Source of the DNA: Pseudomonadales bacterium
GTDB taxonomy: Bacteria > Pseudomonadota > Gammaproteobacteria > Pseudomonadales > Natronospirillaceae
Direction: 5' to 3'
NCBI GenBank assembly: GCA_022968985.1
Contig: JALJPK010000028.1
Coordinates: 1 to 45,200, forward strand
DNA length: 45,200 nucleotides
Shown here one piece after another: positions 6,901 to 12,360 of this stretch. The notes beneath the pieces are model-generated. The model had not been told where the DNA came from, searched no databases, and worked only from the letters and a program-made list of their open reading frames with translations. The number at the start of each line of letters is the position of its first letter. Position 1 is the stretch's first letter. The position numbers and the translations under genes are program-made.

Positions 6901-9357
6901 CTATTCGTAATCACTTTCACCTAATTTTGGATAAGCGTTTTCAATTAACATTATAAATTGTTTATGGAACCAAACCCCTTTATGAGGTGCCATTTCTGGA
7001 ACAACATTAGTCATTTTACCTTCGATATTTTCACCAGGAATACACATAGGATCAAAAAATCTGCGATTTAGTGGGGAATAGAAGGCCTGCATAACCACAT
7101 CCTTTTCAACTGAATCTAATCGATCATATGATGAGGTGCCAATATGGAAATCATTTACATGAAACGAAATTCCATCAGAAGACCCAGGTGTAGTCATCCA
7201 ATAAAAAGCGTCTAAGTGCTCTCTAGTTGAATCGGGGTCAGCCTTAGGTGTTTCACCAATACCTGCATTATTTACGTTACACCAGTGATTACGATGTGTT
7301 CTTGTATCAACACGTTTATCAGGATTTACCCCTTTAACTCCTTCACCTGGTTTAGGCCGACTATCACCTAATTCCCCCCAGCCATTTCGTGACGTATCAA
7401 TAATAAACCCAATGTCTTCGAATTTTTGAGTCCCAAAATAACCTGTAAGATCGGCTGTTGTAAAATACGTGTTTAAATAATCAATGTATGTCATTTCATC
7501 AACAGACGGGTTGTATTCGTAGAAAGCTTCTAATTCTTTTGAATCTAGATAAGTCATCGAGTTGCTAATAAGAGGCTCCTCTGTAGGTGTATAACCTCTA
7601 ATATTTGAAGCAAAACCACGAATCCAGTCCAAACCTTCACCATCTAATTTACCATCGGCCCCATCAATTAATTGTTTGAAATAACGCACACTACGTTTCA
7701 TGGTCGATTGTAAATAATCGGGTATACCATCTTTATATTCTGGATGTTCATAACCATAGTATTCCTCTGTTACATCATTTGCTGCATCTTGACCTAATAA
7801 ATTTGCCTGTCCAATATCTAAATAGGTATAGATATTATTATTGATTAAAGAAACATCGTGTATTTCTTTAATGGCTAAGCGTAATGCACCTGCGTATAAA
7901 CCAAGATTCGGGTTGTTGGTATTACCTTCGCCTACAACAGCGGGCATAATTGTTTCATTATTAAAGTTTAGAATTTCGTCACAATATCCGTTGCTATCTA
8001 ATGCCGCTGGAAATGGGTTAAACGGGGAGTCAGTTGTGTGATACGCTTCATTTGTATTAATGATCATATTCACAAACGAATTGGGTTCCAAAATAGTGAC
8101 TATTCGCAAACTTTTGTATTTGTCATCACTTAATATTTGTGCGATGGGTTTGATGTATTCATCACGATATTTTGCGTAACCAAATCCTTGCACACCTTCT
8201 GAATATGCAGATTGATCTTGACCTACTTGAATTAATTTCCCATTTGGTATATATGCCGTGCAATCTCTGTCTGGCATATTATAAATACCTAACACAATGG
8301 TCATTGGCGCAATTATTTTATCAATATCTAATGTTTGTAAATATTGTTGCTGTAATAACGCTGCGTCTAAATGATCGGTTAAGCCAAAAGGTGGGGTGTA
8401 TATTTCACCAGTAATATCATCAATTGAATTTAACCAAATAGCAGTAGGCTGTTGTTTTATGTATTTCATTTTATTTATAAGTGGGGTGTCACTTGTATTT
8501 TCAATTGAATAATCAATACTATTACTCATTTGATAATTGACATACATGTTGGAATTTGAAAATGGATTATTGATGGTTTGTAATTCAACACCAGCTAGAC
8601 CTTTTTCAATTAATTGGATGTCACCATCGTATTGGCTTAACAGTTTAATTGCAGGGTTGTTTAAATCAATCTCGGGTTCGGCTGGTGCAAACTGTACAGT
8701 TACCTCGTCTGTATCGAATAATACTCCATCAAATACTGTCAGTGTGACAATATTTTCTCCTGTAAATTCATCCGATACATCCGCTAAAGTCAGTATTTTG
8801 TTTGTTTCAATTGTTGTACCGACGATTGACCAAAAGTAAAAAAGTTCATCATCATTTTCGTCTGACGCAAAAGGAGTTATATGAGTGTCTGAAACAAGAA
8901 TGGAATGAATGACCGGGGCAACATTTACGGGTGCTATAATCAGTACCCCAAAATCAACATCTAACTCTTTTGTAGTAACGTCAGTGCCATCAGATACAGT
9001 TAAGGTGACAGTTTGCAACCCACTTACACCTGTTACAGATTCCAATAAAACAAGTTGACCTGACCCAATTTCAATTCCATCAATTGACCATGAATAACTT
9101 AATTGTCCACCTTCAACATCAGAGGCAAAACCGGTTATATAAGTGGCACTGGCATTGACTGAAATAATGCTCGGTGGAGTATTTTCTGTTGTTGCTGTAT
9201 CTGTAGTTGTTGCTGTAGATGTCTGTGTTGACGTTATCGCGGTGGAAGTTTCGGGTGCGGTAGGTGTACCTGTTAACTCTTTGTTTTCAGCTATACAACT
9301 TGTTAATAAGCAAACTGGAATTACTCCTAGAGCCAAGGTCCATTTTTTGAATAGCAA
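6901..9357 (-). CDS. Lipoprotein glycoside hydrolase family 6 (cellulase-like)
   Basis: An exported lipoprotein of 818 aa. The signal peptide ends in the lipobox LTSC (Cys21). A Thr/Ser-rich linker (to about 60) and two Ig/PKD-like domains (about 61-137 and 144-225) follow. The C-terminal ~560 residues match GH6, which cleaves beta-1,4-glucan with inversion: MPDRDCTAY (Asp365, Cys366), ILEPNSF, YLDIGQANLLG, WCNVNNAGIG and TPGSSDGIS (Asp728). In characterised GH6 enzymes the Asp of the E-P/I-D-S motif is the catalytic acid. Here that codon is AAT (Asn426), so activity is in doubt. No cellulose-binding module is evident. The gene is monocistronic with a terminator. The GH6 call is firm; the substrate is inferred. 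Confidence 0.9.
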   Translation of the reverse strand: MLFKKWTLALGVIPVCLLTSCIAENKELTGTPTAPETSTAITSTQTSTATTTDTATTENTPPSIISVNASATYITGFASDVEGGQLSYSWSIDGIEIGSGQLVLLESVTGVSGLQTVTLTVSDGTDVTTKELDVDFGVLIIAPVNVAPVIHSILVSDTHITPFASDENDDELFYFWSIVGTTIETNKILTLADVSDEFTGENIVTLTVFDGVLFDTDEVTVQFAPAEPEIDLNNPAIKLLSQYDGDIQLIEKGLAGVELQTINNPFSNSNMYVNYQMSNSIDYSIENTSDTPLINKMKYIKQQPTAIWLNSIDDITGEIYTPPFGLTDHLDAALLQQQYLQTLDIDKIIAPMTIVLGIYNMPDRDCTAYIPNGKLIQVGQDQSAYSEGVQGFGYAKYRDEYIKPIAQILSDDKYKSLRIVTILEPNSFVNMIINTNEAYHTTDSPFNPFPAALDSNGYCDEILNFNNETIMPAVVGEGNTNNPNLGLYAGALRLAIKEIHDVSLINNNIYTYLDIGQANLLGQDAANDVTEEYYGYEHPEYKDGIPDYLQSTMKRSVRYFKQLIDGADGKLDGEGLDWIRGFASNIRGYTPTEEPLISNSMTYLDSKELEAFYEYNPSVDEMTYIDYLNTYFTTADLTGYFGTQKFEDIGFIIDTSRNGWGELGDSRPKPGEGVKGVNPDKRVDTRTHRNHWCNVNNAGIGETPKADPDSTREHLDAFYWMTTPGSSDGISFHVNDFHIGTSSYDRLDSVEKDVVMQAFYSPLNRRFFDPMCIPGENIEGKMTNVVPEMAPHKGVWFHKQFIMLIENAYPKLGESDYE

Positions 9358-9750
9358 AGTATTCTCCTTTAAACGAAAATATTAAGTCAATCTTAACGAT
9401 TAGTTATACAGCAGAGCTGTTGGTTTTAGTGGACTTAAATTACACCAAAGCCTAATTGAAAAGAGAAAATTTTATCATTAAATAACAGAATGTACTGTGT
9501 GCTAGGTTAGATTTGGTTTAACAGGCTATTAAATAACCAAGGCGGTCTAGATGGTTTTGTATGTCTTGTTTGTATTGTGTAAAAAAGTGCATATAACGAG
9601 TTATAAACCAAAAAATGGGGGTGAGTGGCTGCAGTGTAAGTTGTTGAAAACAGTTAAATCGGTGGATATTACAAAGAATCAGTCTGCTTAAACTTGACTG
9701 ACTAATTAACCTACCCGCATAATCGACTTAACTTTTAAAGGTTAGTTATC
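9358..9750. other. Divergent intergenic region, no gene recognised
   Basis: A 393-base gap between the leftward GH6 gene and the rightward alpha/beta hydrolase. It must hold both promoters, but I could not pick convincing -35/-10 pairs or an operator. No small ORF with family features was seen. Confidence 0.5.
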
Positions 9751-10848: not shown

Positions 10849-12360
10849 ATGAAAAAATGGATGATTTTAGCAAGTGTTATTGCGATATTTTTATTGATTT
10901 TTATAATAAAAAATAACAAACAAGAAAAGATATCGAATGATAGTTTATATAAAGAAATAGTGACTCAAGATACTCAACCGATTATCCAGCTTAAAGAAAA
11001 TATTGAGATTATAAGTGTCAAACCAAAAAAAGAAATAAACATATTACCTGTTGTTAATACAAAACCCTCTGAGCAGCGCTGTATTATAAATAAAGGCATA
11101 ACAATTACTCAAGCCTGCTCGAAATTTAAAAATATAGATAAAATGGATTTTAAAAAATACACTAATTTAATTCTGCATGATGATATTAAAACGATGTTTA
11201 ATTATGGATTACAAATTAGTTCGAAATATCCTGATTTAACTCTATTGGAATTAGGGCAATCAGATCAAGGTAAAGTCTATCAAATATTATTATTTTTTAT
11301 TATGGCTGATATTGATAGTTCGCAGTACTTTTTTGAAAGTAAATTAGATAATGCAGCGTGGATTGTAAGTGATTCAGAAATGGAATTTATAGAAAATACA
11401 ACAAAAACTGGATACAGATTAATTGATCTTGATTTTAATGATGATAGGCCTATATTGAGTTTTATTAAATTAGACGGCGAACTTAAAATTCTTAATTGTT
11501 TCCATGAAAATCAATTAAAATTTTATGAAGAAAATGATTTAAGTCTTAATATAACAAAAACCTGTGTAGATTTTCCGGAGCTTGAATTGTCTACTTATAG
11601 AATGAAAAATATTGTTGTTGATGGTGGAGGTTTTCTTCTTAATGATAATGTGATTCGTCAGTGTTTAGATGGTGTAGTTGATATTTTTGGTTTAGGAATT
11701 GAAATTAATCCAATGACGATCACTAATATAGAATGTGATTCACTAAAAGGCGCAAATATAGAGGTTTTAAAACAATTTGTTAATGTTAAATCTTTCCAAG
11801 TTACTAGGCTTGATAATGATTTGAGTTTTATTAAAGAGTATAAAAATTTAGAGTCATTAATTATATCCGAAAATATTGATTTTGATATCAATTGGTTAAC
11901 TGGAATGAGTCAATTAAAAAAGTTATATCTATCAACTGTAAATATTTCAAATTTAGAAAATTTTGATTATAACTCTATACAGTTAAAACAACTTAGTATT
12001 AAAAATTCAATAGTTGATAATATTGATTTCTTAAGTTTTCAATATGAATTAACTAAAATAGATCTAACAAATACACAATTAACTGTTATGCCTTTACTTG
12101 GTAATAATTCCAATCTTAATGAACTTATTTTAAAGAATAATAATATTAAACATATTAATGATTTTGATCAATTCGTAAATCTTGAAATACTGAATGTCAG
12201 TAAAAATGAAATTGAATACATGTCTAATTTAGATTTGAATAATTCAAAACTTAAATCGGTTAATATCACGTTTAATCCTTTAGATTGTACAGACCCTTAT
12301 TTAAATTATTCGCCTATTGTAAAAAGCTCGTGTAATAGGAAATTAAAATTAAACTTGTAG
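10849..12360 (+). CDS. Leucine-rich-repeat protein with N-terminal membrane anchor
   Basis: A 503-aa protein with one N-terminal membrane helix (about 5-22) and a basic start, so probably an inner-membrane anchor with the rest in the periplasm. Residues about 300-480 are leucine-rich repeats of the 22-residue bacterial type: NLESLIISEN, QLKKLYLSTVNIS, QLKQLSIKNSIVDN, NLNELILKNNNIKHI and NLEILNVSKNEIEYM. Two Cys near the C-terminus (LDCTDPY, KSSCNRK) may cap the solenoid. The middle region is unrecognised. The gene looks even richer in A and T than its neighbours. An AGGAG-like site (CGGAGAAG) precedes the ATG. LRRs normally bind proteins; the partner is unknown. Confidence 0.8.
   Translation: MKKWMILASVIAIFLLIFIIKNNKQEKISNDSLYKEIVTQDTQPIIQLKENIEIISVKPKKEINILPVVNTKPSEQRCIINKGITITQACSKFKNIDKMDFKKYTNLILHDDIKTMFNYGLQISSKYPDLTLLELGQSDQGKVYQILLFFIMADIDSSQYFFESKLDNAAWIVSDSEMEFIENTTKTGYRLIDLDFNDDRPILSFIKLDGELKILNCFHENQLKFYEENDLSLNITKTCVDFPELELSTYRMKNIVVDGGGFLLNDNVIRQCLDGVVDIFGLGIEINPMTITNIECDSLKGANIEVLKQFVNVKSFQVTRLDNDLSFIKEYKNLESLIISENIDFDINWLTGMSQLKKLYLSTVNISNLENFDYNSIQLKQLSIKNSIVDNIDFLSFQYELTKIDLTNTQLTVMPLLGNNSNLNELILKNNNIKHINDFDQFVNLEILNVSKNEIEYMSNLDLNNSKLKSVNITFNPLDCTDPYLNYSPIVKSSCNRKLKLNL

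Follow-up and report, generated by a model that had tools for sequence, protein, structure and literature searches.

Described GH6 enzymes with which the present locus can be compared include wild-type TrCel6A (3cbh), HmCel6A (6k52), CbsA (5xyh) and Exoglucanase A (7cbd), all of which have an aspartate as catalytic acid (D221 in TrCel6A, whose numbering is used below for active-site positions). According to the accessible text of PMC7464555, this aspartate is found in 56 out of 58 non-tunicate GH6 members. The D188A mutant of CfCel6B, called inactive by its authors, displayed 0.0080 vs 0.068 per second (PMC7586223, accessible portion), and the D140A mutant of HmCel6A was catalytically deficient and still bound cellohexaose (PMC8940973, likewise). 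GH6 domains devoid of the D221 aspartate were found in tunicates, namely the CesA-GH6 domain and some GH6-1 proteins, with function given as unknown in the accessible portions of PMC7464555 and PMC10334666. Searches of the PMC literature, which mostly leaves out subscription papers, showed no bacterial set of GH6 pseudoenzymes.

The window analyzed here, a stretch of 45,200 nucleotides, carries a gene whose product matched PF01341 (GH6) at 158.8 bits vs a curated cut-off of 27 (Pfam). Judging by this match, the protein is a GH6 family member by descent and belongs to the same family as the four enzymes named above; it nevertheless displayed Thr, Pro, Gln, Leu, Ser and Asn replacements in its active site, including Asn at the position of the acid (Table 1). 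This residue, N426, aligned on the Asp of the EPDS motif in 7cbd, 6k52 and 5xyh and on D221 of TrCel6A. In 6k55, the structure of the HmCel6A D140A catalytic-acid mutant with cellohexaose bound (PMC8940973, accessible portion), its counterpart was the Ala of EPAS. A sequence-only reading of this DNA had placed the Asn at the acid position, and these alignments confirmed the placement. The DNA motif of the acid site was unremarkable when taken alone (1 found vs 1.14 expected), and Asn426 draws its weight from its place inside a GH6 domain and from a second gene displaying the same change.

Table 1. Features of the GH6 gene, in window positions; residues in brackets are the TrCel6A equivalents
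Feature	Position	Strand	Basis and remarks
GH6 lipoprotein gene	6901..9357	minus	Open frame, 818 codons plus stop, TTG start
AAGGAG, 6 bases 5' of the TTG start	9364..9369	minus	Sequence; presumably ribosome-site-like
Signal sequence with LTSC (residues 18-21, Cys21 last)	9295..9357	minus	Pattern match only; LTSC is taken by us to be a lipobox motif
Stalk, residues about 60-230, PKD/Ig-like by resemblance	8668..9180	minus	Matches to repeat regions of the own genome
GH6 domain, residues 231-818	6904..8667	minus	Pfam and alignments to solved GH6 enzymes
Asn310 replacing D137	8428..8430	minus	Alignment; Asn also in paralogue C209
Asp365 kept (D175, proposed base)	8263..8265	minus	Alignment
Pro371 replacing S181	8245..8247	minus	Alignment
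Asn426 (AAT) replacing catalytic acid D221	8080..8082	minus	Alignment; ATT on the plus strand; motif ILEPNSF
Asp514 kept (D263)	7816..7818	minus	Alignment
Gln517 replacing H266	7807..7809	minus	Alignment
Leu520 replacing W269	7798..7800	minus	Alignment
Gln523 replacing W272	7789..7791	minus	Alignment
Thr722 replacing K395	7192..7194	minus	Alignment
Ser726 replacing E399	7180..7182	minus	Alignment
Asp728 kept (D401)	7174..7176	minus	Alignment

A Thr/Ser-rich linker joined the lipobox-like start to the stalk, and starts of the same kind were encountered in paralogues C209, C27a, C124, C91, C32, C167 and C219; the protein would be placed in the outer membrane. In the repeat regions of the own genome that matched the stalk, PKD was called by Pfam; in the window protein itself Pfam called no PKD, GH6 being its sole domain, and NCBIfam had no family for it. 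The AlphaFold2 model of the GH6 domain, built with four relatives, reached a pLDDT of 43.6, too low for the model to be usable. No carbohydrate cluster was present among the neighboring genes (alpha/beta-hydrolase-like, LRR-like and two small unknowns). A 503-aa leucine-rich-repeat-like protein is encoded at 10849-12360 of the window, and internalin-type models matched it weakly, far below their cut-offs.

The loss of the acid was accompanied by a broader erosion of the cleft. D137, S181, D221, W269, W272, K395 and E399 are positions with roles in the accessible portion of PMC6091422, where S181 is the water-holding serine, D175 the proposed base, and roles are assigned to W269, K395 and E399. 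All seven were changed in the window protein and H266Q came on top of these, whereas W135, Y169, R174, D175, D263, R353, W367 and D401 were retained. Among the substrate contacts (W135, W269, W272, W367, D137, K395 and E399) W135 and W367 alone were kept, and of the base/water pair D175 was present and S181 replaced. Acid, water-holding serine, product-site contacts and two of the four tunnel tryptophans were thus all missing. The sequence-only reading had regarded the other family residues as kept, which held for D365 (D175) and D728 (D401) but not for D137N, S181P, H266Q, W269L, W272Q, K395T and E399S. Its suggestion that the protein may be inactive gained support, this acid-less GH6 protein being probably inactive; that it binds glucan without cutting was weakened by the loss of two of the four tunnel tryptophans together with K395 and E399.

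A PF01341 search of the source genome returned ten GH6 places on nine contigs. Two of them, C167 and C249, are each cut by a contig end and may be halves of one gene, in which case the genes number nine, otherwise ten; both were intact over their readable parts. The whole active site was displayed by C32, C219 and C27b; in C27b the contig ends within the frame, on the upstream side of the domain. Five genes were eroded, namely the window copy, C209, C124, C91 and C27a. C209 displayed D137N, Y169N, D175E, D221N, H266G, W269K, K395S and E399L; the other three kept the acid, with changes D175N, H266Q and W269L in C124, D175N, H266G, W269L and E399V in C91 (S181 masked), and Y169N, R174K, D175S, S181K, H266T, W269N, W272S in C27a. 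H266 and W269 were lost in all five, the proposed base D175 in four of them. The frame of C27a (L027, 3794-10186) encodes 2131 residues, and its GH6 domain is preceded by a very long stretch that contains PKD. On a separate contig and 65% identical to the window copy over the domain, C209 had the same AAT codon; the two Asn copies shared D137N and D221N and differed at 7 of 12 cleft residues. The single G-to-A change invoked earlier falls short as an explanation, Asn426 being one of eight cleft changes in one of five eroded paralogues. Mutants at the D175 equivalent lowered the activity of T. fusca Cel6A by two to three orders, whereas those of TfCel6B lost only about one order on three celluloses and gained slightly on carboxymethyl-cellulose (PMC6091422, accessible portion). 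Because of the mild effect in TfCel6B, the acid-keeping C124, C91 and C27a could, by analogy, retain some activity.

Outside the source genome the acid was nearly always in place. In the order sample, 13 out of 390 genomes, including the source genome, matched the window protein; among the other 12, a PF01341 search found 19 GH6 genes in 11 genomes, the remaining one (G127) being without GH6 and matching through repeats only. The acid position could be read in 17 of the 19 genes (it was masked in two G313 genes) and was Asp in 16 and Gly in one. The same Asn, for which relatives were to be searched according to the earlier reading, thus recurred in paralogue C209 but not in the 17 readable genes of the other genomes. 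L102 (G135:C55:5753-6712, minus strand; same gene in L055) is a distant second GH6 of G135 with IEPGALA, hence Gly at the acid site, as well as Y169F and S181A, and with H266, W269, W272, K395 and E399 retained. Like the window protein it is acid-less, but it represents a distant subfamily with its own separate change. Over the domain, the other GH6 of G135 did not differ from its counterpart in Marinagarivorans algicola (L036), which is why L036 was not counted again; L037, L038 and L039 also carry Asp at this position. In the class sample, GH6 was detected in one out of 369 genomes, namely the source genome, which was also the only one covered by the genus search. The plasmid collection yielded three GH6 records, all distant and actinobacterial.

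Changes were concentrated in the cleft. Twelve named active-site residues were invariant across 22 comparison rows, an invariance that is partly by choice, this set having been named after the table was seen and excluding the five eroded copies, the acid-less and distant G135b, and also C167 and C249, which are truncated. Nineteen of the 22 rows came from other genomes, and the Marinagarivorans and G135a rows were identical over the domain. The window copy changed 7/12 active-site vs 8/59 other invariant columns (one-sided Fisher p 0.002, or 0.006 without D221) and C209 changed 7/12 vs 12/59 (p 0.012, or 0.027 without D221). C124 (2/12, p 0.27), C91 (3/11, p 0.15) and C27a (5/12, p 0.09) were not significant alone; the five copies pooled, which are not independent, displayed 24/59 vs 41/294 changed. 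Each of six relatives matched intact C32 at 12/12 active-site residues, even TrCel6A, which is only 28% identical to it elsewhere. In the six eroded pairs compared (C124 not included), 3-6 of 11-12 were in common, at 50-64% identity over other positions. By Nei-Gojobori, dN/dS was 0.20 between the window copy and C209, a rough value as dS (1.47) was near saturation, and 0.15 for the intact pair C32-C167. These figures argue that constraint is relaxed on the cleft and maintained over the remaining domain.

Trees were built without fifteen active-site columns, and one of them lacks C249. The seven nearest own copies formed a clade (100/100) whose neighbors were the genes of Marinagarivorans and G003. 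The copies C91, C27a, C209 and that of the window (C195w) clustered (92/96), and the window copy is likely, though not firmly, paired with C209 (87/47 and 80/67). In a larger tree C124 grouped with intact C32 (99/94). A single origin of all five erosions was not rejected (AU 0.053 with 29 rows and 0.30 with 15 rows).

The explanation that we consider likely is that of a duplicated set of GH6 lipoproteins, some of which lost their chemistry and persist in a non-catalytic role with the rest of the domain under purifying selection. Duplication would have been specific to the lineage of this cellulolytic marine gammaproteobacterium; several copies would then have lost the acid (the window copy and C209) or the proposed base (four of the five), along with much of the glucan cleft, and purifying selection would hold the remainder of the GH6 domain. 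On the residues lost, the window protein is very probably a lipid-anchored, stalked GH6 pseudoenzyme that does not hydrolyze glucan at a useful rate.

Members are often lost from gene families with many near-copies, and the window copy might be a decaying duplicate that no longer has a task and is on its way to becoming a pseudogene, without any function at present. The replacement residues were unlike between copies at most lost sites, as in an unconstrained cleft; yet the frames of all five eroded genes were open over 818 to 2131 codons, the dN/dS of about 0.2 resembled that of the intact pair, and 51 of the 59 other family-invariant columns were retained in the window copy, which makes such decay unlikely. 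A working or altered glycosidase appears more improbable still. It would employ another acid such as D514, the Asn as an imidic acid, as reportedly occurs in a GH45 enzyme, or an Asp formed by deamidation of Asn-Ser. D365, D514 and D728 were indeed kept, D137N and D221N were common to both Asn copies despite their other cleft differences, so that the Asn may be selected, and the acid mutant of CfCel6B had a residual rate (PMC7586223, accessible portion). However, S181, H266, W269, W272, K395 and E399 were gone along with the acid, by which chain placement and water would be compromised, and no new acidic residue was common to the replacements; the other acid proposed in the sequence-only reading, for which D514 remains available, is unlikely. 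An error of sequencing or assembly at one base, conceivable in a fragmented assembly of 273 contigs, is hardly credible: relatives elsewhere do have Asp, as such an error would have it, but C209 has the same codon on a separate contig and seven further coherent changes accompany it in the window protein.

Under the preferred reading of a retained pseudoenzyme, a non-catalytic head would keep glycan, the particle or enzymes that are its partners close to the cell, via surfaces off the old tunnel. If catalysis is lost, a holding or docking head is the likeliest role, a prediction with about an even chance of being right. Surfaces other than the tunnel are proposed because the tunnel residues differ between the two Asn copies, and with their difference at 7 of 12 cleft residues it is doubtful that both grasp cellulose by way of the old tunnel. 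A chain is still bound by the acid-less HmCel6A D140A, but far more of the tunnel is gone here. More tentatively, and with somewhat less than an even chance, one marine genus might have turned a duplicated cellulase into five stalked non-catalytic surface heads that differ in which cleft residues they have lost. Such heads would attach to cellulose particles, or dock next to those intact GH6 and GH5 lipoproteins that stand on like stalks.

The source genome (4.80 Mb, 273 contigs; window G+C 33.5%) displayed six GH5 places, three GH9 places, one GH45 and many GH6, and no GH10 was found in it. Long lipoprotein-like proteins with PKD repeats and a GH5 domain are encoded at L088 (4051-8190 and 8591-12700, minus strand) and L090 (4395-9236, plus strand). 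In these three of the six GH5 proteins the NEP and GEFG motifs were present and no such erosion was seen. The stalk-plus-cellulase layout is common to the GH6 and GH5 families of this genome. The product of L091 (1902-5825), 1308 aa long, contains PKD repeats, and Pfam called no glycosidase domain in it. The accessible text of PMC11966569 describes MAG ALOHA_DT_13 as 4.8 Mb with a G+C of 34.5%, counts seven secreted GH6 genes in its cellulase repertoire, next to six GH5, two GH9, one GH8, one GH45 and no GH10, and assigns it to the genus of Marinicellulosiphila megalodicopiae, a cellulose degrader that came from a deep-sea ascidian. The close resemblance in size, G+C and GH content (with two secreted GH9 vs three places here) suggests that the source genome may be ALOHA_DT_13. 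Cellulolytic bacteria are rated by gene counts, and, judged by sequence, roughly half of this genome's GH6 copies should fail to function as GH6 enzymes; to count the five eroded copies as cellulases would be misleading, another job being probable.

The intact bacterial relatives (Marinagarivorans algicola L036, L037-L039 and G003) had GH6 domains 47-53% identical to that of the window protein over the four named loci, and L036, L037 and L039 shared its lipoprotein-like start; unlike the window protein, they displayed the full active site throughout. If the proposed role is true, the fold of a bacterial cellulase has been retained in the absence of catalysis. Intact sister genes of the same genome would then serve as controls, and the case would be a tractable counterpart to the GH6 domain, as yet unexplained, of the tunicate cellulose synthase. 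Both are GH6 domains without the acid Asp. Tunicate CesA-GH6, however, is an animal protein fused to a GT2 cellulose synthase, a fusion absent from the window protein according to Pfam, and the latter is, unlike the tunicate proteins, a bacterial lipoprotein present in several copies beside intact ones.
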